NCBI GenBank assembly: GCA_963681505.1
Contig: OY811979.1
Location: 1,869,430 to 1,933,429 of the forward strand
Reading direction: 5' to 3'
Source: Eunapius fragilis
Lineage: Eukaryota > Porifera > Demospongiae > Spongillida > Spongillidae
Length of the DNA stretch: 64,000 nucleotides
Shown: positions 48,775 to 64,000 of the stretch, in pieces
How positions within the stretch are numbered: the stretch's first letter is position 1
Layout of the letters: every line of letters begins with the position of its first letter
Program-made: the position numbers and the translations under genes
The notes under the pieces: model-generated
Database searches by the model: none
What the model saw: only the letters and a program-made list of their open reading frames with translations
What the model was told of the DNA's origin: nothing

Positions 48775-48814
48775 AGTGCACCAATCCGTCGCGCTGCGAC
48801 GGATTGGTGCACTT
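48774..48814. other. Perfect 41-bp inverted repeat at the start of array C
   Basis: Arms AAGTGCACCAATCCGTCGC (48,774-48,792) and GCGACGGATTGGTGCACTT (48,796-48,814) are fully complementary, 19 bp each, with spacer GCT. The right arm is normal array C sequence, and GCT is also the loop of the imperfect hairpin in ordinary C units. The left arm therefore looks like a fold-back copy of the right. It overlaps the preceding palindrome by one base. Confidence 0.93.
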
Positions 48815-49240
48815 ATGCGGGATCTATCTGTAACAATTTGGCACAATTTGGCGCGTTGCGACGGATTGCAGCATTTTCGTGGAACCAATCTGTAACAATT
48901 CGGCGCGCTACAACGGATTGCTGCATTATCGCTGGATCAATCTGCAACAATTCCGGGCAATTCAGCGCGCTGAGACCGATTGTTTCACTATGGCGGGATC
49001 AATCTGCAACAATTAGGCGCAATTCGGTTCGCTGAGACGGATTGCTGCACTATTGCGGGATCAATCTGCAATATGTTATTCGGCACAATTCGGAGCGCTG
49101 CGACCGATTGCTGCACTTTCACGGCTTCAATCTGCAACAATTCAGCGCAATTCGGCGCGCTGCGACGGATTCCTGCACTTATTTTCGCAGGATCAATCTG
49201 TAACAATTCGGGGCAATTCGGCGCGCCGAGACCGATTGCT
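48775..49240. repeat. Array C, block 1: ~62-bp units
   Basis: The units read roughly GGCGCGCTGCGACGGATTG, then CTGCACTTTCGCGGGATCAA, then TCTGCAACAATTCGGCGCAA. Spacing between CAATCTG motifs is 52, 62, 62 and 66 bp. An imperfect hairpin, AATTCGGCGC-GCT-GCGACGGATT (for example 49,149-49,171), lies in the unit. The block is collinear, unit by unit, with 51,101-51,513, including an unusual ATGTTATTCGGC unit, so the two are duplicates rather than independent samples of one array. No credible gene is present. Confidence 0.88.
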
Positions 49241-49620
49241 TAGTGGTAGTAGGATTGGTAGTGGTAGTGGTAGTGGGATTGGTAGTGGGATTGGTAGTGG
49301 TAATGGTAAGGGCAGTTGGATTGGTAGTGGGATTGGTAATGGTAGTGGTAGTGGTAGTGGGATTGTTAGAGATAGTGATAAGTGGGATTGGTAGTGGTAA
49401 TAGGAGTGGGATTGGTAGTGGGATTAGTAGTGGTAGTGGTAGAGGTAGTGGGATTGGTTGTGGTAGTGGTAGTGGTAGTGGGATTGGTAGTGGGATTGGT
49501 ATTGAGATTGGTAGTAGAAGTGGTAGTGGTAGTGGGATCGGTAGTGGGAGTGGTAGTGGGATTGGTTGTGGTAGAGGTAGTGAGATTGGTATTGAGATTG
49601 GTAGTGGTAATGGTAGTGGT
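49241..49620. repeat. Array D, block 1: GTAGTG/GGATTG hexamer array
   Basis: Simple-sequence DNA built from the hexamers GTAGTG and GGATTG in irregular order, starting directly after GACCGATTGCTT of array C. The + strand is almost free of C. On + it can be read as Gly/Val/Leu or Gly/Ser/Ile repeats and on - as Leu/Pro repeats. These are typical false frames. Confidence 0.95.
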
Positions 49621-49731
49621 TCAATCTGCAAAAATTCAGCACAATTCGGCGCGCTGCGACGGATGCCTGTACTTTCGCAGGATCAATCTGTAACAATTCG
49701 GGGCAATTCGGCGCACCGAGACCGATTGCTA
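49621..49731. repeat. Array C fragment inside array D
   Basis: This 111-bp stretch nearly duplicates about 49,126-49,240, the last part of block 1, including CGGGGCAATTCGGCGC and CCGAGACCGATTGCT directly before the hexamers. It shows that the C end plus the start of D was duplicated as one unit. A further relic, GATCGATTGCT at 50,795-50,805, resembles the same C end. Confidence 0.88.
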
Positions 49732-51054
49732 AGTGGTAGTGGGATTGGCAGTGGTAGTGGTAGTGGGATTGGTAGTGGGATTGGTAGTGGTAGTGGTAGT
49801 GGTAGTGGGATTGGTAGTGGTAGTGGTAGTGGTTGTGGGATTGGTATTGGATTGGTAGAGGGATTGGTAGTGGGATTGGTAGTGGTAGTGGTAGTGGGAT
49901 TGGTAGTGGTAGTGGAAGAGGTAGTGGGATTGGTAGTGGGGTGGGTAGTGGTAGTGGTAGTGGTAGTGGGATTGGTAGTGGGATTGGTAGTGGTAATTGT
50001 GATCGGTAGTGGGATTTGTAGTGGTAGTGGTATTGGGATTGGTAGTGGTAGTGGTAGTGGGATTGGTAGTGGTAGTGGTAGTGGTAGTGGGATTGTTAGT
50101 GGGATTGGTAGTGGGATTGGTTGTGGTAGTGGGATTGGTAGTGGGATTGGTAGTGGGATTGGTAGTGGGATTGGTAGTGGGATTGGTAGTGGTAGTGGTT
50201 GAGGTAGTGGGATTGGTAGTGGGATTGGAAGTGGGATTGGTAGTGGTAGTGGGATTGGTAGTGGGATTGGTAGTGGGATTGGTAGTGGGATTGGTAGTGG
50301 TAGTGGTAGTGGTAGTGGGATTGTTAGTGGGATTGGTAGTGGGATTGGTAGTGGGATTGGTTGTGGTAGTGGTAGTGGTAGTGGGATTGTTAGTGGGATT
50401 GGTAGTGGGATTGGTAGTGGAAATTGTAGTGGTCGTGGGATTAGTAGTGGGATTGGTAGTGGTAGTGGGATTGGTAGTGGGATTGGTAGTGGGATTGGTA
50501 AGTGGGATTGGTAGTGGTAGTGGGATTGGTAGTGGTAGTGGTAGAGGTAGTGGGATTGGTAGTGGGATTGGTAGTGGTAGTTGTAGTGGTAGTGGGATTG
50601 TTAGTGGGATTGGTAGTGGGATCGGTATTGGGATTGGTAGTGGTAATTGTAGTGGTAGTGGGATCGGTAGTGGGATTTGTAGTGGTAGTGGTAGTGGGAT
50701 TGGTAGTGGTAGTGGTAGTGGGATTGGTAGTGGGATTGGTAGTGGAAATTGTAGTGGTCGTGGGATTGGTAGGGGACTTGGTAGTGTAGTGGTAGATCGA
50801 TTGCTAGTGGTAGTGGTAGTGGGATTGGTAGTGGGATTGGTAGTGGTAGCGGTAATGGGATTGGTAGTGGGATTGGTAGTGGTAATTATAGTGGTAGTGG
50901 GATAAGTAGTGGGATTGGTATTGGTAGTGGTAGTGGGATTGGAAGTGGTAGTGGTAGTGGGATTGGCCGCGGTATTGGTAGTGGAATTGGTTGTGGGTTT
51001 GTTTGTGGTAGTGGTAGTGGTAGTGGGATTGGTAGTGGTAATTGAAGTGGGATT
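49732..51054. repeat. Array D, block 2: GTAGTG/GGATTG hexamer array
   Basis: About 1.3 kb of GTAGTG and GGATTG hexamers with rare variants (GTAATTG, GGTCGTG, GTTGTG). Strong strand asymmetry: the + strand is G/T/A with C almost absent. Dense GG and GGG runs could support two-tier G-quadruplex or R-loop formation; that is inference. Stop-free frames of about 320 and 300 codons on + arise from composition only. Confidence 0.95.
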
Positions 51055-51515
51055 GCGGGATCAATCTGTAACAATTCAGCGAAATTCGGCGCGTTGCGAC
51101 GGATTGGTGCACTTTTGCGGGATCTATCTAACAATTTGGCGCAATTTGGCGCGCTGCGACGGATTGCAGCACTTTCGCGGAACCAATCTGTAACAATTCG
51201 GCGCGCTACAACGGATTGCTACACTATCGCTGGATCAATCTGCAACAATTCGGGGCAATTCGGCGCGCTGAGACCGATTGCTTCACTATGGCGGGATCAA
51301 TCTGCAACAATTAGGCGCAATTCGGCACGCTGAGACGGATTGCTGCACTTTTGCGGGATCAATCTGCAATATGTTATTCGGCACAATTCAGCGCGCTGCG
51401 ACCGATTGCTGCGCTATCACGGGTTCAATCTGCAACAATTCAGCGCAATCCGGCGCGCTGCGACGGATTACTGCACTTTCGCAGGATCAATCTGTAACAA
51501 TTCGGGGCAATTCGG
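51055..51515. repeat. Array C, block 2
   Basis: Collinear copy of block 1 (48,801-49,230 against 51,101-51,513; offset 2,300 falling to about 2,294 through small indels). Differences are mainly single bases. It ends abruptly in GGGGCAATTCGGGACAAG, where array E starts. Confidence 0.88.
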
Positions 51516-51517
51516 GA

Positions 51518-51690
51518 CAAGTATGTCATTATGCAAGTATGTCACGATGACTCCTGCAGGATGCAAGTATGTCACTATGCATGACTCCTGTAGGAGTCAA
51601 GAATTTACATGATTCTCTCCTGCGGGAGTCAAGTATTTCAATGTATGACTCCTGCGGGAGTCAAGTATTTCAAAGCATAACTCCCGCAGG
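51518..51690. repeat. Array E edge block repeated at +1,435 bp
   Basis: The first ~170 bp of array E, with CAAGTATGTCATTATGCAAG, GCAGGATGCAAG and TCAAAGCATAAC, recurs at about 52,953-53,125. The left edge of the array is therefore an internal piece of array E joined to array C, not a degraded terminus. Confidence 0.8.
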
Positions 51691-52159
51691 AGTCAAGTAT
51701 GTCACAATGCAACACTCCTGCAGGAGTCAAGTATTTCAATGTATGACTCCTGCAGGAGTCAAGGATGTCAATATGTATGACTTCTGCTGGAGTCAAGTAT
51801 GTCACAATGCAACACTCCTGCAGGAGTCAAGTATTTCAATGTATGACTCCTGCAGGAGTCAAGGATGTCAATATGTATGACTTCTGCTGGAGTCAAGTAT
51901 CTCCATGCATGACTCCTACCGGAGTGAAAAATCTCCATGTATGACTCCTGCAGGAGTCATGTATGTCAGTATGATTGACTCCAGCAGGAGTCAAGTATGT
52001 CACTATGTATGACTCCTGCAGGAGTCAAGTATTTCAATGTATGACTCCCGCAGGAGTCAAATATTTCAATGAAGGACTCCTGCAGGAATAAAGTATGTCA
52101 TTATGTATAACTCCTCCAGGAGTCATGCATCTCCATGCATTACTCCTGCAGGAGTCAAG

Positions 52160-52219
52160 TATCTGAACCTGCGTCAGCAGGTTCAATATAGGATTGATTG
52201 AGGAGTCATGAATGTCATT
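52160..52219 (+). other. Stem-loop with conserved tail, internal copy
   Basis: TATC is followed by stem TGAACCTGC (52,164-52,172), loop GTCA, stem GCAGGTTCA (52,177-52,185) and the tail ATATAGGATTGA. A spacer-like ATGAATGTCATT follows at 52,208-52,219. The 9-bp stem is perfect. It interrupts the palindrome/spacer rhythm of array E and is followed by about 25 bp of other sequence (TTTTCAACAATTATG). The same architecture, with another stem sequence, ends the array at 62,901-62,959. Confidence 0.85.
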
Positions 52220-53572
52220 TTTTCAACAATTATGACTCCTTCAGGAGTCAAGTATTTCAATGTATGACTCCTGCAGGAGTCAAGTATTTCAATATGTATG
52301 ACTCCTGCAGGAGTCAAGTATGTCAGTATGTATGACTCCTGCAGGAGTCAACTATATATATGCATGACTCCTGCAGGAGTCAAGTATGTCAATATCTCTG
52401 ACTCCTTCAGAAGTCAAGTATTTCAATGTATGACTCCTGCAGGAGTCAAGTATTTCAATATGTATGACTCCTGCAGGAGTCAAGTATGTCAGTATGTATG
52501 ACTCATGCAGGAGTCAACTATATATATGCATGACTCCTGCAGGAGTCAAGTATGTCAGTATGCAAGACTCCTGCAGCAGTCAAGAATGTTAATGTATGAT
52601 TCCTGCAGGAGTCAAGTATCTCCAAGCATGACTTCTGCAGGAGTCAAGTAATTCAGTATGTATGATACCTGCAGGAGTCAAGTATGTCACTCAAGTATTT
52701 CAATGTACGAGTCCTGCAGGAGTCAATTATTTTAATTATGACTCCTGCAGGAGTCATGTATGTCAATATGTCTGACTCCTGCAGGAGTCAAGTATTTCAA
52801 TGTATGACTCCTGCAGGAGTCAAGTATTTCGATATGTATGACTCCTGCAGGAGTCAAGTATCTCCATGCATGACTCCTGCAGGAGTCAAGTATGTCAGTA
52901 TGCATGACTCCAGCACGAGTCAAGTATCTCAATGTATGACTCCTGCAGGATGCAAGTATGTCATTATGCAAGTATGTCACTATGACTCCTGCAAGATGAA
53001 AGTATGTCACTATGCATGACTCCTGTAGGAGTCAAGAATTTAAATGATTGACTCCTGCGGGAGTCAAGTATTTCAATGTATGACTCCTGTGGGAGTCAAG
53101 TATTTCAAAGCATAACAACCGCAGGAGTCAAGTATGTCAATATGTAGGACTCCTGCAGGAGTCAAGTATCTCAATGTATGACTCCTGCAAGTGTCAAGTA
53201 TGTCACAATGCAACTCTCCTGCAGGAGTCAAGTAATTCAATGTATGACTCCTGCAGGAGTCAAGGATGTCAATATGTATGACTTCTGCTGGAGTCAAGTA
53301 TCTCCATGCATGACTCCTACAGGAGTGAAAAATCTCCATGCATGACTCCTGCAGGAGTCAAGTATGTCAGTATGTTTGACTCCAGAAGGAGTCAAGTATG
53401 TCACTATGAATGACTCCTGCAGGAGTCAGGTATTTCAATGTATGACTCCTGAAGGAGTCAAGTATGTCAGTATCATTGACTACTACAGGAGCCATATGTC
53501 AATATGTATGACTCCTGCAGGAGTATAGTATGTCAATATGTATGACTCCTCCAGGAGTCATTTATCTCCATG

Positions 53573-55820
53573 CATGATTCCTGCAGGAGTCAAGTATGTC
53601 AGTATGCAAGACTCCTGCAGGAGTCAAGTATCTCAATGTATGACTCCTGCAGGAGTCAAGTATCACCAAGCATGACTCCTGCAGGAGTCAAGTATGTCAT
53701 TATGTCTTACTCCTGCAAGAGTCAAGTATTTCAATGTATGACTCTTGCAGGAGTCAAGTATATCAATATGTATGACTCCTGCAGGAGTCAAGTATCTCCA
53801 TGTATGACTCCTGTAGGAGTCAAGTATGTCAGTATCAATGACTACTACAGGAGCCATATGTCAATATGTATGACTCCTGCAGGAGTGAGCAATCTCCATG
53901 TATGACTCCTGCAGGAGTAAAATATGTCACTATGAATGACTCCTGCAGGAGTCAAGTATGTCAGTTTGGATGACTTGTGCAGGAGTCTAATATGAATGAC
54001 TCCTGCAGGAGTCAAGTATTTCAATGTATGACTCCTACAAGAGTCAAGTTTGTCAGTATGCATGACTCCAGCAGGAGTCAAATATTTCAATGAATGACTC
54101 CTGCAGGAGTAAAGTATGTAAATATGTATGACTCCTCCAGTAGTCAATTATCTCCATGCATGACTCCTGCAGGAGTCAAGTATGTCAGTATGGAATACTC
54201 CTGCAGGAGTCAAGAATCTCAATGTATGACTCCTGCAGGAGTCAAGTGTCTCCATGCATGACTCCTGAAGGAGTCAAGTATGTCAGTATGTATGACTCCT
54301 GCAGGAGTCAAGTATCTCCATGCATGACTCCTGCAGGAGTCAAGTAGGTCAGTATGAATGACTCCTGCTGGAGTCATATGTCAATTTGTATGACTCCTGC
54401 AGGAGTCAGCAATTTCCATGTATGACTCCTGCAGGAGTCAAGTATGTCAAAATGTATGAGTCCTGCAGGAGTCAAGTATGTCAATATGTATGACTCCTGT
54501 AGGTGTCAACTATATATTTGCATGACTCCTGCAGGAGTCAAGTAAGTCAGTTTGTATGACTGCTGCAAGAGTCAAATATGTTACAATGAATGACTCCTGC
54601 AGGAGTCAAGTATGTCAGTATGCAAGACTCCTGCAGGATTCAAGTATCTCAATGTATGACTCCTGCAGGAGTCAAGTATCTCCAAGCATGACTCCTGCGG
54701 GAGTCAAGTATGTCAATATGTCTAATTCCTGCAGGAGTCAAGTATTTCAATGTATGACTCCTGCAGAAGTCAAGTATATCAATATGTATGACTCCTGCAG
54801 GAGTCAAGTATCTCCATGTATGACTCCTGAAGGAGTCAAGTTTGTCAGTATCAATGACTACTACAGGAGCCATATGTCAATATGTATGACTCCTGCAGGA
54901 ATGAGCAATCTCCATGTATGACTCCTGCAGGAGTAAAATATGTCACTATGAATGACTCCTGCAGGAGTCACGTATTTCAATATATGACTCCTGCAGGAGT
55001 GAAGTATTTCATTGAATGACGCCTGCAGGAGTCAAGAATGTCAATATATATGACTCTTGCAGGAGTCAAGGATCTCCATACATGAAACCTGCAGGAGTCT
55101 AGTATGTCAGTATCAATGACTCCTGCAGGAGTCAAGTATTTCAATGTATGACTCAAGTATTTCAATGTATGACTCCTGCAGGAGTCAAATATATCATTAT
55201 GTATGACTATTGCAGGAGTCAACTCTATACTTAGATGTCAATATGTATGACTTCCGCAGGAGTCAAGTATCTCCATGCATGACTCCTACAGGAGTGAAAA
55301 ATCTCCATGTATGACTCCTGCAGGAGTCAAATATGTCACTATGAATGACTCCTGCAGGAGTGAAGTATTTCAATGAATGACTCCTGCAGGAGTGAAGTAT
55401 TTCAATGAATGACTCCTGCCGGAGTGAAGTATTTCAATGAATGACTCCTGCAGTAGTCAAGAATGTCAATATGAATGACTCTTGCAGGAGTCAAGGGTCT
55501 CCGTGCATGACACCTGCAGGAGTCAAGTATGTCAGTATCAATGACTCCTGCAGGAGTCAAGTATTTCAATGTATGACTCAAGTATTTCAATGTATGACTC
55601 CTGAAGGAGTCAAATATATCATTATGTATGACTATTGCAGGAGTCAAGTCTATACTTGCATGACTCCTGCAGGAGTCAAGTATGTCAGTATGTATGACTC
55701 CTGCAGGAGTCACCTATTTATTTGCATGACTCCTGCAGGAGTCAATGTATGACTACTGCAGGAGTCAAATATGTCATTATGAATGACTCCTGCAAGAGTG
55801 AAGTATTTCAATGAATGACT
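53573..55820. repeat. 2.25-kb segmental duplication in array E, copy 1
   Basis: Matches 58,188-60,435 at a constant offset of 4,615 bp. The order of spacer types and private variants (GGAGTCTAATATG, CTACTACAGGAGCC, GGGTCTCCGTGCATG) is preserved. Part of it (53,573 to about 54,180) is also present at 56,962 to about 57,570, offset 3,389. Confidence 0.87.
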
Positions 55821-58187
55821 CCTGCAGGAGTGAAGTATTTCAATGAATGACTCCTGCTGGAGTGAAGTATTTCAATGAATGACTCCTGCAGTAGTCAAGA
55901 ATGTCAATATGTATGACTCTTGCAGGAGTCAAGGGTCTCCGTGCATGACGCCTGCAGGAGTCAAGTATGTCAGTATGTTTGACTCCAGAAGGAGTCAAGT
56001 ATGTCAGTATGCAAGACTCCTGCAGGAGTCAAGTATCTCAATGTATAACTCCTGCAGGAGTCAAGTATGTCAGTATGTATGACTCCTGCAGGAGTGAAGT
56101 ATGTCACTATGAATGACTCCTGCAGGAGTCAAGTATTTCAATGTATGACTCCTGCTGGAGTGAAGTGTTTCAATGTATGACTCCTGAAGGAGTCAAGTAT
56201 GTCAGTATCATTGACTACTACAGGAGCCATATGTCAATATGTATGACTCCTGCAGGAGTGAGCAATCTCCATGCATGACTCCTGCAGGAGTATAGCATGT
56301 CCTGCAAGAGTCAAGCATGTCAATATGTATGACTCCTGTAAGAGTCAACTTTTTATTTGCATGACTCCTGCAGGAGTCAAGTATGTCAGTTTGTATGACT
56401 GCTGCAGGAGTCAAATATGTTACAATGAATGACTCCAGCAGGAGTCAAGTATTTCAATGTATGACTCCTACAAGAGTCAAGTTTGTCAGAATGCATGACT
56501 CCGGCAGGAGTCAAATATATATTTGAATGACTCCTGCAGGAGTATAGTATGTCAATATGTATGACTCCTCCAGGAGTCATTTATCTCCATGCATGACTCC
56601 TGCAGGAGTCAAGTATGTCAGTATGCAAGACTCCTGCAGGAGTCAAGTATCTCAATGTATGACTCCGGCTGGAGTCAAGTATCTCCATGCATGACTCCAG
56701 CAGGAGTCAAGTATGTCAGTATGTATGACTCCTGCAGGAGTCAAGTATGTCTCTCAAGAATTTCAATGTATGACTCCTGCAGGAGTCAAGTATTTCATTT
56801 ATGACTCTTGCAGGAGTCAAGTATGTCAATATGTCTGACTCCTGCAGGAGTCAAGTATTTCAATGTATGACTCCTGCAGGAGTCAAGTATTGCAATATGT
56901 ATGCTGCAGGAGTAAAGTATGTCAGTATGCATGACTCCTGCAGGAGTGAACTATATATTTGCATGATTCCTGCAGGAGTCAAGTATGTCAGTATGCAAGA
57001 CTCCTGCAGGAGTCAAGTATCTCAATGTATGACTCATGCAGGAGTCAAGTATCACCAAGCATGACTCCTGCAGGAGTCAAGTATGTCATTATGTCTGACT
57101 CCTGCAAGAGTCAAGTATTTCAATGTATGACTCTTGCAGGAGTCAAGTATATCAATATGTATGACTCCTGCAGGAGTCAAGTATCTCCATGTATGACTCC
57201 TGAAGGAGTCAAGTATGTCAGTATCAATGACTACTACAGGAGCCATATGTCAATATGTATGATTCCTGCAGGAGTGAGCAATCTCCATGTATGACTCCTG
57301 CAGGAGTAAAATATGTCACTATGAATGACTCCTGCAGGAGTCAAGTATGTCAGATTGGATGACTTGTGCAGGAGTCTAATATGTCAAAATGAATGACTCC
57401 TGCAGGAGTCAAGTATTTCAATCTATGACTCCTACAAGAGTCAAGTTTGTCAGTATGCATGAATCCAGCAGGAGTCAAATATTTCAATGAATGACTCCTG
57501 CAGGAGTAAAGTATGTCAATATGTATGACTCCTCCAGTAGTCAATTATCTCCATGCATGACTCCTGCAGGAGTCAAGTATGTCAGTATGCAAGACTCCTG
57601 CAGGAGACAAGTAGCTCAATGTATGACTCCTGCAGGAGTCAAGTATCTCCATGAATGACTCCTGAAGGAGTCAAGTATGTCAGAATGTATGAGTCCTGCA
57701 GGAGTCAAGTATGTCAATACATATGACTCCTGTAGGTGTCAACTATATATTTGCATGACTCCTGCAGGAGTCAAGTAAGTCAGTTTGTATGACTGCTGCA
57801 GGAGTCAAATATGTTACAATGACTCCTGCAGGAGTCAAGAATGTCAGTATGCAAGACTCCTGCAGGAGTCAAGTAGCTCAATGTATGACTCCTGCAGGAG
57901 TCAAGTATCTCCATGAATGACTCCTGCAGGAGTCAAGTATGTCAGTACGTATGACTCCTGCAGGAGTCAAGTATGTCTCTCAAGAATTTCAATGTATGAC
58001 TCCTGCAGGAGTCAAGTATTTCAATTATGACTCTTGCAGGAGTCAAGTATGTCAATATGTCTGACTCCTGCAGGAGTCAAGTATTTCAATGCATGACTCC
58101 TGCAGGAGTCAAGTATTTCAATATGTATGCTGCAGGAGTAAAGTATGACAGTATGCATGACTCCTGCAGGAGTCAACTATATATTTG

Positions 58188-60435
58188 CATGATTCCTGCA
58201 GGAGTCAAGTATGTCAGTATGGAAGACTCCTGCAGGAGTCAAGTATCTCAATGTATGACTCCTGCAGGAGTCAAGTATCTCCAAACATGATTCCTGCAGG
58301 AGTCAAGTATGTCATTATGTCTGACTCCTGCAGGAGTCAAGTATTTCAATGTATGACTCCTGCAGGAGTCAAGTGTATCAATATGTATGACTCCTGCAGG
58401 AGTCAAGTATCTCCATGTATGACTCATGAAGGAGTCAAGTATGTCAGTATCAATGACTACTACAGGAGCCATATGTAAATATGTATGACTCCTGCAGGAG
58501 TGAGCAATCTCCATGTATGACTCCTGCAGGAGTAAAATATGTCACTATGAATGACTCCTGCAGGAGTCAAGTATGTCAGTTTGGATGACTTGTGCAGGAG
58601 TCTAATATGAATGACTCCTGCAGGAGTCAAGTATTTCAATGCATGACTCCTACAAGAGTCAAGTTTGTCAGTATGCATGACTCCAGCAGGAGTCAAATAT
58701 TTCAATGAATGACTCCTGCAGGAGTAAAGTATGTCAATATGTATGACTCCTCCAGTAGTCAATTCTCTCCATGCATGACTCCTGCAGGAGTCAAGTATGT
58801 CAGTATGGAACACTCCTGCAGGAGTCAAGTATCTCAATGTATGACTCCTGCAGGAGTCAAGTGTCTCCATGCATGACTCCTGAAGGAGTCAAGTATGTCA
58901 GTATGTATGACTCCTGCAGGAGTCAAGTATCTCCATGCATGACTCCTGCAGGAGTCAAGTAGGTCAGTATGAATGACTCCTGCTGGAGTCATATGTCAAT
59001 TTGTATGACTCCTGCAGGAGTCAGCAATTTCCATGTATGACTCCTGCAGGAGTCAAGTATGTCAAAATGTATGAGTCCTGCAGGAGTCAAGTATGTCAAT
59101 ATGTATGACTCCTGTAGGTGTCAACTATATATTTGCATGACTCCTGCAGGAGTCAAGTAAGTCAGTTTGTATGACTGCTGCAAGAGTCAAATATGTTACA
59201 ATGAATGACTCCTGCAGGAGTCAAGTATGTCAGTATGCAAGACTCCTGCAGGAGTCAACTATCTCAATGTATGACTCCTGCAGGAGTCAAGTATCTCCAA
59301 GCATGACTCCTGGGGGAGTCAAGTATGTCAATATGTCTAATTCCTGAAGGAGTCAAGTATTTCAATGTATGACTACTGCAGAAGTCAAGTATATCAATAT
59401 GTATGACTCCTGCAGGAGTCAAGTATCTCCATGTATGACTCCTGAAGGAGTCAAGTTTGTCAGTATCAATGACTACTACAGGAGCCATATGTCAATATGT
59501 ATGACTCCTGCAGGAGTGAGCAATCTCCATGTATGACTCCTGCAGGAGTAAAATATGTCACTATGAATGACTCCTGCAGGAGTCACGTATTTCAATATAT
59601 AACTCCTGCAGGAGTGAAGTATTTCATTGAATGACGCCTGCAGGAGTCAAGAATGTCAAAATATATGACGTATGCAGGAGTCAAGGATCTCCATACATGA
59701 AACCTGCAGGAGTCTAGTATGTCAGTATCAATGACTCCTGCAGGAGTCAAGTATTTCAATGTATGACTCAAGTATTTCAATGTATGACTCCTGCAGGAGT
59801 CAAATATATCATTATGTATGACTATTGCAGGAGTCAACTCTATACTTAGATGTCAATATGTATGACTTCTGCAGGAGTCAAGTATCTCCATGCATGACTC
59901 CTACAGGAGTGAAAAATCTCCATGTATGACTCCTGCAGGAGTCAAATATGTCACTATGAATGACTCCTGCAGGAGTGAAGTATTTCAATGAATGACTCCT
60001 GCAGGAGTGAAGTATTTCAATGAATGACTCCTGCAGGAGTGAAGTATTTCAATGAATGACTCCTGCAGTAGTCAAGAATGTCAATATGTATGACTCTTGC
60101 AGGAGTCAAGGGTCTCCGTGCATGACACCTGCAGGAGTCAAGTATGTCAGTATCAATGACTCCCGCAGGAGTCAAGTATTTCAATGTATGACTCAAGTAT
60201 TTTAATGTATGACTCCTGAAGGAGTCAAATATATCATTATGTATGACTATTGCAGGAGACAAGTCTATACTTGCATGACTCCTGCAGGAGTCAAGTATGT
60301 CAGTATGTATGACTCCTGCAGGAGTCAACTATTTATTTGCATGACTCCTGCAGGAGTCAATGTATGACTACTGCAGGAGTCAAATATGTCATTATGAATG
60401 ACTCCTGCAAGAGTGAAGTATTTCAATGAATGACT
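58188..60435. repeat. 2.25-kb segmental duplication in array E, copy 2
   Basis: Collinear with 53,573-55,820. Immediately downstream a smaller piece (GTAGTCAAGAATGTC ... GTCTATACTTGC) is repeated again at 60,430-60,660, so the 3' end of the block was re-copied. Confidence 0.86.
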
Positions 60436-60721
60436 CCTGCAGTAGTCAAGAATGTCAATATGTATGACTCTTGCAGGAGTCAAGGGTCTCCGTGCATGAC
60501 ACCTGCAGGAGTCAAGTATGTCAGTATCAATGACTCCTGCAGGAGTCAAGTATTTCAATGTATGACTCAAGTATTTCAATGTATGACTCCTGAAGGAGTC
60601 AAATATATCATTATGTATGACTATTGCAGGAGTCAAGTCTATACTTGCATGACTCCTGCAGGAGTCAAGTATTTCAATGTATGACTCCTGCAGGAGTCAA
60701 GTATGTCAGTATGTATGACTC

Positions 60722-61593
60722 CTGCAGGAGTCAACTATTTATTTGCATGACTCCTGCAGGAGTCAATGTATGACTACTGCAGGAGTCAAATATGTCATTA
60801 TGAATGACTCCTGCAAGAGTCAAGTATCTCCATGCATGACTCCTGCAGGAGTCATAAATGTCAGTATGAATGACTCCTGCAGGAGTCATATGTCAATTTG
60901 TATGACTCCTGCAGGAGTGAGCAATCTCCATGTATGACTCCTGCAAGAGTATGAGTCCTGCAGGAGTCAAGTATGTCAATATGAATGACTCCTGTAGGAG
61001 TCAACTATTTATTTGCATGACTCCTGTAGGAGTCAAGTACGTCCGTTTGTATGACTGCTGTAGGAGTCAAATATGTTACAAAGAATGACTCCTACAGGAG
61101 TCAAGTATTTCAATGTATGACTCCTGCAGAAGTCAAGTATGTCAGTATGTATGACTCCTGCAGGAGTCAACTATTTATTTGCATGACTCCTGCAGGAGTC
61201 AATGTATGACTACTGCAGGAGTCAAATATGTCATTATGAATGACTCCTGCAAGAGTCAAGTATCTCCATGCATGACTCCTGCAGGAGTCATAAATGTCAG
61301 TATGAATGACTCCTGCAGGAGTCATATGTCAATTTGTATGACTCCCGCAGGAGTGAGCAATCTCCATGTATGACTCCTGCAAGAGTATGAGTCCTGCAGG
61401 AGTCAAGTATGTCAATATGAATGACTCCTGTAGGAGTCAACTATTTATTTGCATGACTCCTGTAGGAGTCAAGTACGTCCGTTTGTATGACTGCTGTAGG
61501 AGTCAAATATGTTACAAAGAATGACTCCTGCTGGAGTCAAGTATTTCAATGTATGACTCCTACCAGACTGCATACTGACATACATGACTCCTG
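60722..61593. repeat. 436-bp tandem duplication in array E
   Basis: 60,722-61,157 and 61,158-61,593 repeat at 436 bp. Shared markers are AACTATTTATTTGC, GAGTCATAAATGTCAG and GTACGTCCGTTTG. The second copy breaks down near 61,565, where an inverted spacer lies. Confidence 0.86.
61569..61583 (-). other. Spacer in reverse orientation in array E
   Basis: TGCATACTGACATAC is the reverse complement of the common spacer GTATGTCAGTATGCA. I found no other reversed spacer of this length in the array. Its left flank is a damaged palindrome (GACTCCTACCAGAC) and its right flank a normal one. Confidence 0.8.
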
Positions 61594-62900
61594 CAGGAGT
61601 CAAATTCGTCAGTACGCATGACTCCAGCAGGAGTCAAATAATTCAATGAATGACTCCTGCAGGAGTAAAGTATGTCAATATGTATGACTCCTCCACGAGT
61701 CATTTATCTCCATGCATGACTCCTGCAGGAGTCAAGTATGTCAGTATGCAAGACTCCTGCAGGAGTCAAGTATCTCAATGTATGACTCCTGCAAGAGTCA
61801 AGTATCTCCATGCATGACTCCTGCAGGAGTCAAGTATGTCAGTATGTATGACTCCTGCAGGAGTCAAGTATGTCTCTCAAGAATTTCAATGTATGACTCC
61901 TGCAGGAGTCAAGTATTTCAATTATGACTCTGCAGGAGTCAAGTATGTCAATATGTCTGACTCCTGCAGGAGTCAAGCATTTCAATGTATGACTCCTGCA
62001 GGAGTCAAGTATTTCAATATGTATGACTCCTGCAGGAGTCAAGTATGTCAGTATGCATGATTCCTGCAGGAGTCAACTATATATTTGCATGTCTCCTGCA
62101 GCAGGAGTCAAGTATGTCAGTATGCAAGACTCCTGCAGGAGTCAAGTATCTCAATGTATGACTCCTGCAGGAGTCAAGTATCTCCGAGCAAGACTCCTGC
62201 AGGAGTCAAGTATGTCAATATGTCTGACTCCTGCAGGAGTCAAGTATTTCAATGTATGACTCCTGCAGGAGTCAAGTATATCAATATGTATGACTCCTGC
62301 AGGAGTCAAGTATCTCCATGTATGACTCCTGAAGGAGTCAAGTATGTCAGTATCAATGACTACTACAGGAGCCATATGTCAATATGTATGACTCCTGCAG
62401 GAGTGAGCAATCTCCATGTATGACTCCTGCAGGAGTAATATATGTCACTATCAATGACTCCTGCAGGAGTCACGTATTTCAATATATGACTCCTGCAGGA
62501 GTGAAGTATTTCATTGAATGACTCCTGCAGGAGTCAAGAATGTCAATATGTATGACTCTTGCAGGAGTCAAGGATCTCCATACATGAAACCTGCAGGAGT
62601 CAAGTATGTCAGTATCAATGACTCCTGCAGGAGTCAAGTATCTCAATGTATGACTCCTGCAGGATTGAAGTATTTCAATGTATGACTCCTGCTGGAGTCA
62701 ATTATGTCAATACGTATGACTCCTGCAAGAGTCAAGTATCTCCATGCATGACTCCTGCAGGAGTCAAGTATGTCAGTATCAATGACTCCTGCAGGAGTCA
62801 TATGTCAATTTGTATGACTCCTGAAGGTGTGAGCAATCTCCATGTATGACTCCTGCAGGAGTCAAGTATGTTAGAATGTATGAGTCCTGCAGGAGTCAAG

Positions 62901-62959
62901 TATCGAGAGTTACGTTAGTAACTCTCATATAGGATTTGACCCCGATTATGAATGTCATT
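62901..62959 (+). other. Stem-loop with conserved tail at the end of array E
   Basis: TATC is followed by stem GAGAGTTAC (62,905-62,913), loop GTTA, stem GTAACTCTC (62,918-62,926) and the tail ATATAGGATTTGA. ATGAATGTCATT follows at 62,948-62,959. After this there is no further array E unit. It shares the TATC flank, 9-bp stem length, GTYA loop and ATATAGGATT tail with 52,160-52,219, but six of nine stem base pairs differ. This looks like a conserved boundary structure. I do not recognise a named element. Confidence 0.87.
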
Positions 62960-63543
62960 AAAAAAACGCGACCCGCTTCTAACAACACTCCCGACGAGCG
63001 GATGGCTTATCTTGTTATCGTCGTCGTACAAGAAGGTAACAACAAGTAGTTTCGTGTTTGTTTGATGTCACAGAACCGCGTGGTTGTAGAGAACAAAACA
63101 ATTTTCGAAACTCGTACCCAGTCCCACGTATTTCTCGTTCTTCTTCTTCTTGTTCTTGACCACGCATAACTCGGGATAGGAACACTTTTAAGAAATGAAA
63201 ATCACACCAATGGCTTCAGAATTCGCTGGCATTTTCGCTTCTGTGGTCAAAACGTCTCGAGGCTACATGACATACATCGGTGGTTGTGTTAGCAAATCAC
63301 GTATAGTTAAGCTTACTGCACTGACACGACGCGGATAGGTCCTACTTCGCTCTTTATACGAAGTATTAGCAGTATACATCATGTAATCAAATGTGTACGG
63401 TCTGGGCACTACACGTAGTGGTAATTAACTGTGGCGATTATGTATTTTTAACAACGTGCACGTGCGTACTATAATCGTTCTTGTTATTCGATCGTTGTAA
63501 GTTTGACGCTCTTTGTAACTTAGTGAAGTTTTTTTTTTCCAAA
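62960..63543. other. Non-repetitive DNA without a recognisable gene
   Basis: First unique-looking sequence in the window. No frame of useful length, no convincing TATA element and no tRNA fold seen. Minor features are the pyrimidine tract TTCTCGTTCTTCTTCTTC near 63,130, the 10-bp palindrome ACGTGCACGT near 63,457, the inverted repeat CACTAC-AC-GTAGTG near 63,407 and a T-run ending at 63,538. It could be an intergenic or 5' flank for the relic downstream. Confidence 0.6.
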
Positions 63544-63591
63544 ATGCCTTCACGTCAGGAAAAGACGACGAGCATAGTACCTCAAAACTAG
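63544..63591 (+). pseudogene. Short frame MPSRQEKTTSIVPQN before a repeat-protein relic
   Basis: ATG in a fair context (A at -3) opens a 15-codon frame ending in TAG. The following basic repeat (63,606 onward) lies in a different frame, with a stop between them. The pair therefore looks like the frameshifted start of a broken gene, unless an intron bridges it. The basic, polar composition fits the start of a basic repeat protein, but the link is inference. Confidence 0.35.
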
Positions 63592-63605
63592 AGTCGACGT
63601 ATTAG

Positions 63606-63740
63606 ATTCAGCCCGACCGGAACTACAAAGCAGAGCCTGAAAAGAAGCGGGCCTCTCAACGTGAAAAATATCGAGCAGAGCCTGAAAAGAAACGGACCTC
63701 TCGACGCGCAAGGTATCGAGATGCGATTAGTAGACTGTAG
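63606..63740 (+). pseudogene. Degenerate Lys/Arg/Glu/Pro repeat protein fragment
   Basis: A stop (TAG, 63,603-63,605) is followed by 44 codons ending in TAG at 63,738. They contain two 15-residue repeats, YKAEPEKKRASQREK and YRAEPEKKRTSRRAR, then YRDAISRL. The repeat is highly charged and probably helical. From memory, such repeats are frequent in sponge gene predictions, sometimes at the N-terminus of large proteins linked to transposons; I cannot confirm that here. No start codon in frame, so it is a relic or an exon. Either way the same frame is open from 63,741 to the window end and contains further repeats. Confidence 0.5.
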
Positions 63741-63743
63741 GAA

Positions 63744-63758
63744 GGGGGGGGGGGGGGG
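63744..63758 (+). repeat. G15 homopolymer
   Basis: Fifteen consecutive G, directly after the TAG that ends the repeat fragment. Length is likely variable and error-prone in sequencing, so frame statements across it are unsafe. Confidence 0.9.
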
Positions 63759-63771
63759 AGAGGGTGCTGTC

Positions 63772-63817
63772 TGCTTCAGTCTGGCCCGATACAAAATGCG
63801 TTCGTGGGTTCGATCGC
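63772..63817 (+). promoter_or_regulatory. Possible tRNA-like Pol III A and B boxes (SINE relic?)
   Basis: TGCTTCAGTCTGG (63,772-63,784) resembles an A box and GGTTCGATCGC (63,807-63,817) resembles a B box. The gap of 22 bases is shorter than in normal tRNA genes, and no T-run terminator or target-site duplication is obvious. It lies in the ~140-bp stretch that separates two copies of the basic repeat, so it could be a small SINE-like insertion. Chance similarity cannot be excluded. Confidence 0.28.
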
Positions 63818-63837
63818 GCTGGGGCGACAATTAATAA

Positions 63838-63876
63838 CCTCTCTTCTATTTCGGCCGCCCCTTAAAGCCCCCTCAG
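63838..63876 (+). other. Polypyrimidine tract and CAG: possible splice acceptor
   Basis: The tract CCTCTCTTCTATTTCGG and then CCCCCTCAG (ending 63,876) immediately precede ATCCTGAAAAGG, where the basic repeat resumes. If a weak donor GTAGAC at 63,730 were used, a 147-bp intron would join the two repeat segments in frame and remove the TAG and the G-run. The donor is poor, so this is only a hypothesis. Confidence 0.3.
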
Positions 63877-64000
63877 ATCCTGAAAAGGAACGGACCTCTC
63901 GACGTGCAAGGTATCGAGCAGATCCTGAAAAAAGACAGCGATATTGCCATAGTCCTGAACGTGCATCTCGTGGCGGCGAAAGAGTTAAGGTCACTCAAAG
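63873..64000 (+). CDS. Partial basic repeat protein, runs off the window
   Basis: The frame reads SDPEKERTSRRAR, then YRADPEKRQRYC, then HSPERASRGGERVKVTQ, without stop to the window edge. It continues the 15-residue repeat of 63,606-63,737 in the same frame. DNA identity between the segments is high, for example ACCTCTCGACG then GCAAGGTATCGAG in both. This may be an exon of a real gene or part of a transposon-related coding region. The function is unknown. No start can be assigned inside this segment. Confidence 0.45.

Follow-up and report, generated by a model that had tools for sequence, protein, structure and literature searches.

Covarying hairpins in a satellite array of a sponge genome very probably mark the 5′ ends of Helitron-like transposons

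The window analysed here is a 64,000-nucleotide stretch of contig OY811979.1 from the sponge Eunapius fragilis (positions 1,869,430 to 1,933,429). Table 1 presents an overview of the part in which a satellite, array E, is associated with two hairpins. Both hairpins are very probably 5′ terminal hairpins, belonging to Helitron-like transposons that move by rolling circle and represent a lineage of Helitron2 type. The original prediction had reported two hairpins of one architecture and both are present: as single-stranded DNA, the 34-mers fold at a predicted -9.9 and -8.0 kcal/mol, far better than shuffled sequences (z -6.3 and -4.8). Its observation that six of nine stem positions differ while every pair is kept was confirmed in both copies, with nine of nine pairs kept in each. 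Both are followed by the tail ATATAGGATT, the full pattern TATC-N9-GTYA-N9-ATATAGGATT being present at 52,160 and 62,901. The TATC that had been read as a conserved flank is indeed shared; however, only its TC belongs to the element, the TA being target DNA, and the left flank is common to the two hairpins because both copies sit in one satellite. Rfam at gathering thresholds gave no match in the window between 44 and 64 kb.

Table 1. Features assigned in and across the right-hand end of the window
Feature	Position in window	Strand	Details
Satellite array E, GACTCCTGCAGGAGTC palindromic units	51534..62902	.	TRF; insertion target, outside both elements
5′-terminal fragment of TGAACCTGC-stem element (TC...GAATGTCATT), 58 bp	52162..52219	+	Without 3′ end; array-like DNA next
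5′ terminal hairpin	52164..52185	+	Stem TGAACCTGC/GCAGGTTCA, loop GTCA; TC at 52,162
Non-autonomous Helitron-like element, 1,482 bp	62903..64000, on to 64,384	+	L039 33-1514, C9:1,932,332-1,933,813
5′ terminal hairpin	62905..62926	+	Stem GAGAGTTAC/GTAACTCTC, loop GTTA; TC at 62,903
5′ asymmetric terminal inverted repeat CATATAGGATTTGA	62926..62939	+	Inverted copy about 40 bp from 3′ end, outside window
5′ region and probable remnant of first coding exon	62941..63720	+	Basic EPEKKR-type repeats; shared with autonomous L046

The same design recurs across the genome, which was searched as 218.9 Mb in 24 contigs with reversed patterns as controls. The pattern TATC-N9-GTYA-N9-ATATAGGA, which omits the last TT of the window tail and does not demand stem pairing, has 783 sites (389 + 394) against one (0 + 1) for its reverse; chance hairpins are thereby rejected, and the genome search that had been suggested for this pattern returned many further copies. 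A perfect 9-bp stem was counted manually in 91 of the 100 sites listed. Patterns with a GVNA loop add a further 1,482 sites (control 0), while exact copies of the 62,905 hairpin together with its TC and tail number 283 genome-wide (control 0). Among the perfect stems observed are GAGAGTTAC, GGAAGTTTC, TGAACCTGC and AGGAACTAC, and further AGGAACTGC, GGAACCTAC and GGAACCTGC. Loops starting with a base other than G occur at 83 sites (control 1) and loops ending with a base other than A at 28 (control 0); since these two patterns and the GVNA pattern all fix stem pairs 4 and 9, they are no test of the closing pair. The GTYA search left that pair unselected, and 98 of the 100 sites listed there have C-G. 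With few exceptions, the loop reads GNNA and has C-G as its closing pair. An A in place of the first loop G is common among the exceptions, as CpG decay would give. DNA hairpins with cGNNAg loops are known for their stability.

Among 29 distinct sequences, 94.6% of cells are paired compared with 74.1% in shuffles, a percentage that pairs 4 and 9 raise even though they show no double change. Cells with a double change number 67 against 20.9 in shuffles and the covariation score is 0.623 against 0.206; for none of these three measures does any of 500 shuffles reach the observed value. When the partner column is slid by 1-3, pairing falls to 24-51%. Six of the nine stem pairs change on both sides. 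The suggestion that structure is kept while sequence changes holds well beyond the two window copies, with stems that covary genome-wide and a constant shape, loop rule and tail.

In the eight copies compared, common sequence is found only to the right of the hairpin and the left flanks look unrelated; the hairpin is therefore the left (5′) terminus. The element at 62,903 extends 384 bp beyond the window, and array E resumes in register at position 1515 of locus L039. Since the array lies on both sides of the element in register, it is the target and not the cargo. Removing the element by eye restores the array unit GTCAAGTA^TGTCAATATG; AGTCAAGTA followed by TGTCAATA has 13 occurrences in array E. 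The right hairpin had been described as the change from repeats to unique DNA, and here the boundary stands, but the "unique" DNA is the element itself, after which the array resumes. The 62,903 element is 92% identical to an insert of 1,462 bp in L040, which lies in non-array DNA within an autonomous relative and has an empty counterpart in L044. On one side of this insert, L040 1-169 equals L044 2307-2475 (169 of 169 bases); on the other, L040 1631-9156 corresponds to L044 2475-10000 (7,526 aligned bases, 99.93%).

These comparisons bear directly on the idea, raised by the original prediction, that the hairpin is the terminal (3′) hairpin of a Helentron- or HINE-type element carrying tandem repeats, array E included. 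Palindromes do mark Helentron-type ends and some such elements hold tandem repeats, according to sections of PMC4067079. Against this stand the restriction of shared sequence to the right of the hairpin, the in-register array on both sides of the 62,903 element, and the same element in non-array DNA with an empty counterpart. The target is also A^T rather than TT, and no endonuclease domain is found among the Pfam matches of three autonomous open reading frames (ORFs), those of L044, L045 and L046, which leaves room for one in a separate ORF. A Helentron-type assignment is thus barely credible, and the claim that the 62,903 copy carries the array as cargo or shows its 3′ terminus is refuted by the empty-site comparison.

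Both the window element and the L040/L044 pair run from TC to CTTG between A and T without target duplication, so the alignment of flanks that had been advised yielded both a consistent A^T boundary and an empty site. A precedes TC at all 22 distinct 5′ ends, and 20 of the 22 have T one position further out; 12 of the 22 came through patterns or lists that demanded TATC, including the window's own two. Among the 10 ends not selected for TATC, A is at -1 in all 10 and T precedes it in eight. On contig C1, TA precedes 23 of 30 exact GAGAGTTAC-type ends among the matches listed. On the other side, T follows CTTG at every one of the 29 3′ ends whose mirrored arm is exact. Inner arms, though no termini, are counted in this set, which was found with a pattern demanding CTTG and is therefore no test of the CTTG end. 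Six of the 35 3′-end rows lack an exact mirrored arm and were left uncounted (two from L006, one each from L043 and L065, and two from L067); they also have T next. Insertion takes place between A and T, usually at TA^T, and without target duplication.

We propose that the 62,903 copy is a non-autonomous deletion derivative inserted in satellite E. L039 30-850 aligns with L046 2235-3095, an autonomous relative, at 87.8% over 863 bp, and the region with the probable exon remnant has no Pfam match. The copy at 52,162 matches L005 at 57 of 58 bases and L041 at 56 of 58, after which the sequences diverge, and the DNA that follows resembles array TTTCAATATGTATGACTCC with three substitutions. Either truncated transposition or a later deletion may have produced it. 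Satellite arrays often rearrange, and the junction holds TTTTCAACAA, which is not fully explained by either parent; both points favor a whole element that was later deleted by array recombination. On the other hand, the array-like DNA resumes near register at the same A^T site, and the chances of deletion, as opposed to truncated transposition, are about even.

Turning to the inverted repeats and the 3′ end, the asymmetric inverted repeats measure 11-14 bp. The 5′ repeat starts at element position 24-25, which is the last hairpin base or after it, and the 3′ copy, at 39-42 bp from the terminus, precedes a short TTCTC/GAGAA stem-loop. Junctions show the 3′ end to be CTTG in the window element and the filled/empty pair, and likewise in three GGAACC-type autonomous copies and the GAGAG-type L053, in agreement with the earlier remark that no CTRR end is visible. 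CTTG closes a near-perfect palindrome in which the 5′ tail of the respective family recurs in inverted form: CATATAGGATTTGA in GAGAG, ATATAGGATTTGA in GGAAG, ATATAGGATTGA in TGAAC and ATATAGGAATC in GGAACC. The palindrome spans 284-295 bp in seven of the nine copies measured, with arms that match at 132-139 of 142-147 positions; L003, having no exact mirrored end, was left unmeasured, and L006 is uncounted, having been entered as an AGGAAC element with its palindrome reversed (the conserved inner flank TTTCAT is outermost). Across these four families, agreement of the 5′ tail with the 3′ end runs to 11-13 bases within a family and to 8-11 between families; the exception is GAGAG and GGAAG, which have one tail in common and agree with each other over 13. 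No cross-family match is longer than the own-family one, so the two ends vary jointly.

The palindrome might instead be a separate, hitch-hiking foldback element or miniature inverted-repeat transposable element (MITE), with the true 3′ end elsewhere, and the occurrence of several such palindromes in one locus (L043) is in keeping with this. It is nevertheless highly unlikely, as similarity stops at the palindrome's CTTG, both in the filled/empty comparison and among the three autonomous copies of GGAACC type; these are 99.6-100% alike over the 1.2-1.9 kb that lead to the end of the palindrome and diverge immediately afterwards. The outer arm also holds the 5′ tail copy, which varies along with the 5′ end of its family, and the palindrome as an independent MITE was rejected on these two grounds. 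In L043:769-4681, four palindromes of the element family occur within 4 kb, and a single GACTCCTGCAGGAGTC satellite-like unit lies between two of them.

Autonomous partners are present in the genome, which has 91 Helitron_like_N matches. Among these, the ORFs of L044, L045 and L046 (1,977-2,020 amino acids) contain DUF6570, Helitron_like_N, PIF1 and OTU by Pfam, the OTU of L044 falling under the Pfam cut-off; HUH and two-tyrosine motifs, as we take them to be, can be read in the L044 translation. The two autonomous relatives that were measured, 10.5 and 13.8 kb long, both have the 5′ hairpin. A hairpin lies upstream of Rep in all four class-B families fetched, with stems TGAACCTGC in L041, GGAACCTAC in L044 and GAGAGTTAC in L046, and with AGAACCTAC/GTAGGTCCT, one mismatch and the tail ATGTAGGA in L045. 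When L041, L044 and L046 were scanned for perfect stems of at least 9 bp after TC, their named hairpins were the sole finds. The Rep family of L046, with matches at 91.7 bits, has 18 of them, mostly of 1,995 or 1,996 amino acids; among the matches listed, the GAGAG hairpin lies 3,227-3,232 bp upstream in six of six, and L046 is a seventh. The closest named relative of the L046 Rep region is a protein (P0005) of the freshwater sponge Ephydatia muelleri at 83% identity, and an ENA protein (P0001) is 99% identical. The GAGAG autonomous element (L046/L048/L053, C6:5,427,709-5,441,552; about 13.8 kb) has long tandem repeats after its ORF, including an 18-bp GAGCTCGAGGWGGACGCG array, and the GAGAG copy at C6:5,509,204 reads N in this tandem-repeat region.

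A Helitron-like identity is supported by insertion without target duplication and by a Helitron_like_N Rep together with a PIF1 helicase in one ORF of autonomous partners. With TC-to-CTTG boundaries, an empty site and Rep-PIF1-OTU partners, the prediction of a terminal hairpin from a rolling-circle element has been borne out. Within the Helitrons, the layout is Helitron2-like: the 5′ hairpin is at the very end, its stem directly after TC, and the asymmetric inverted repeats have their 3′ copy upstream of the 3′ hairpin. The TC start and the A^T target are Helitron1-like. A canonical Helitron1 family with an incidental 5′ hairpin would account for these last two features as well as for the lack of duplication and the 3′ hairpin, and CTTG is one letter off CTRR. 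It is improbable all the same, given that the 5′ hairpin covaries and is found in all four class-B families, and that the tail repeat is present at both ends. Moreover, the L046 protein matches Helraiser in the helicase only (91.7 bits), whereas the Rep of another class, L047, aligns with it over 920 residues (906 bits) and is therefore taken as Helitron1.

Several results weigh against placing the hairpins at the 5′ ends of Helitron2-type elements. The inverted repeat begins at or after the last hairpin base, while in the Helitron2 description it lies 0-2 bp from the end and helps to form the 5′ hairpin; CTTG stands at the 3′ end in place of CTRR; and no 3′ palindrome is found in about 2.1 kb after the L041 ORF. 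The number of pairs with a double change, six, is close to the shuffle mean of 5.0 and is reached by 85 of 500 shuffles, and further pair types number 11 compared with 13.7 in shuffles, a value that 500 of 500 reach. In addition, 17 of the covariation rows came from the GVNA search, whose pattern fixes pairs 4 and 9. When other types of stem were sought, 11 and 131 sites resulted, with controls of 6 and 20; the matches listed are mainly mutated known stems, palindrome arms and non-hairpin repeats, with few or no new hairpin types. Finally, the Helitron2 placement draws on the termini and a weak similarity to Helraiser rather than on a Rep tree.

Hairpins of this kind are known, since they have been described for Helitron2 and FoHeli1. 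In the sections of Bao and Jurka (2013; PMC3627910) on Helitron2 termini, 5′ hairpins, asymmetric repeats and compensatory 5′-hairpin changes between two related elements are reported. The elements here resemble Helitron2 in their 5′ and 3′ hairpins, their T start and their asymmetric repeats, and differ from the same account in a repeat that follows the hairpin rather than forming it, a TA^T target compared with TTTT in the Chlamydomonas examples, a 284-295 bp mirrored 3′ palindrome and a GNNA loop closed by C-G. In Fusarium oxysporum, FoHeli1/2 also start with TC and a hairpin right at the 5′ end, carry a hairpin at either terminus and have an inverted repeat 38-51 bp from the 3′ end; in contrast, their 3′ end is ATTTT, their target TNAT/T, their host a fungus and their stems about 5-6 bp as read from the printed ends (excerpts of PMC5148889). 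Helitron1 and Helraiser, as portrayed in parts of PMC4778049 and PMC5876387, have the TC 5′ end, A/T insertion without duplication, a 3′ hairpin before the end and a Rep-helicase protein; unlike the present elements, they have a 3′ hairpin only, end in CTRR and are without inverted repeats. The L046-class Rep is distant from the Helraiser Rep. Subterminal inverted repeats, a 3′ palindrome and non-autonomous copies are shared with Helentron, HINE and DINE-1 elements, and OTU is reported in Helentrons and found here too (sections of PMC4067079). In the titles and abstracts of literature on GNNA-type DNA loops, Helitron2 and sponge Helitrons, nothing closer than the cited papers appeared, the palindrome alone not having been sought. 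Relative to the excerpts cited, what is perhaps new is a Helitron2-like layout with A^T/TC ends, a repeat after the hairpin and a C(GNNA)G loop, together with a mirrored 3′ end of 290 bp and the large number of stem families within a single genome.

Since the stems covary, a reading of the 5′ hairpin by Rep is proposed. Rep may recognize the 22-nt hairpin, once extruded, from its shape, the C(GNNA)G loop and the tail ATATAGGA, and nick A^TC at the 5′ end. PIF1 would then unwind 5′ to 3′, the 3′ tail copy and terminal palindrome would stop the reaction at CTTG^T, and the strand would circularize and be inserted into TA^T; the nick, unwinding, stop, circle and insertion are modeled on Helraiser as outlined in portions of PMC4778049 and PMC5876387. 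Stems would drift while pairing is kept, so that each family would come to have its own stem.

Guide pairing is a feature of IS200/IS605 elements. By analogy, the ATA in the tail here might form pairs with the target TAT, leaving one C bulged; this pairing is absent from the DNA fold prediction of the window 34-mers.

A broader and rather doubtful, though possible, proposal is that the lineage combines the end chemistry of Helitron1 (TC, A^T) with an architecture of Helitron2 type and has a modular 5′ origin made of a single-stranded DNA hairpin. The exchangeable stem would be a family-specific address read by the cognate Rep-Hel-OTU, next to a near-invariant C(GNNA)G loop and ATATAGGA tail, and a mirrored 290-bp duplicate of the 3′ end would act as the terminator. 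If so, the genome would hold natural stem swaps that separate shape reading from sequence reading in Helitron initiation. For Helraiser, an intact left terminal sequence is described as crucial, the dissection covered in the excerpt being that of the 3′ hairpin only (PMC5876387); about 90% of activity remained after the 3′ stem was swapped, but a changed loop and closing pair abolished the hairpin's effect (part of PMC4778049). The natural 5′ ends here follow the rule of the Helraiser 3′ hairpin, with a free stem and a kept loop and closing pair. Across 2,265 left-end pattern matches, the shape, loop rule and tail are kept and most stem letters are free, and long open Rep-Hel frames coexist with these left ends in the genome.

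Other repeats were noted in and near the window. Just beyond the window, array E holds a second insertion (L039:1681-3013, C9:1,933,980-1,935,312) with 232-bp perfectly inverted arms around a match to eukaryotic large-subunit rRNA; an ORF in it presumably resembles a Ty3/gypsy reverse transcriptase and has no Pfam match. To the left, an alternating 185/208-bp satellite with a 393-bp unit (113 copies by TRF) fills window positions 1-44544, about 70% of the window. At 48777-51515, a 12-bp TGGTAGTGGGAT array (49,244-51,055) has a 62/114/128-bp CAATTCGGCG array on both sides, as if inserted, and translations suggest that this 12-bp array occurs again in L039, after 5,496.

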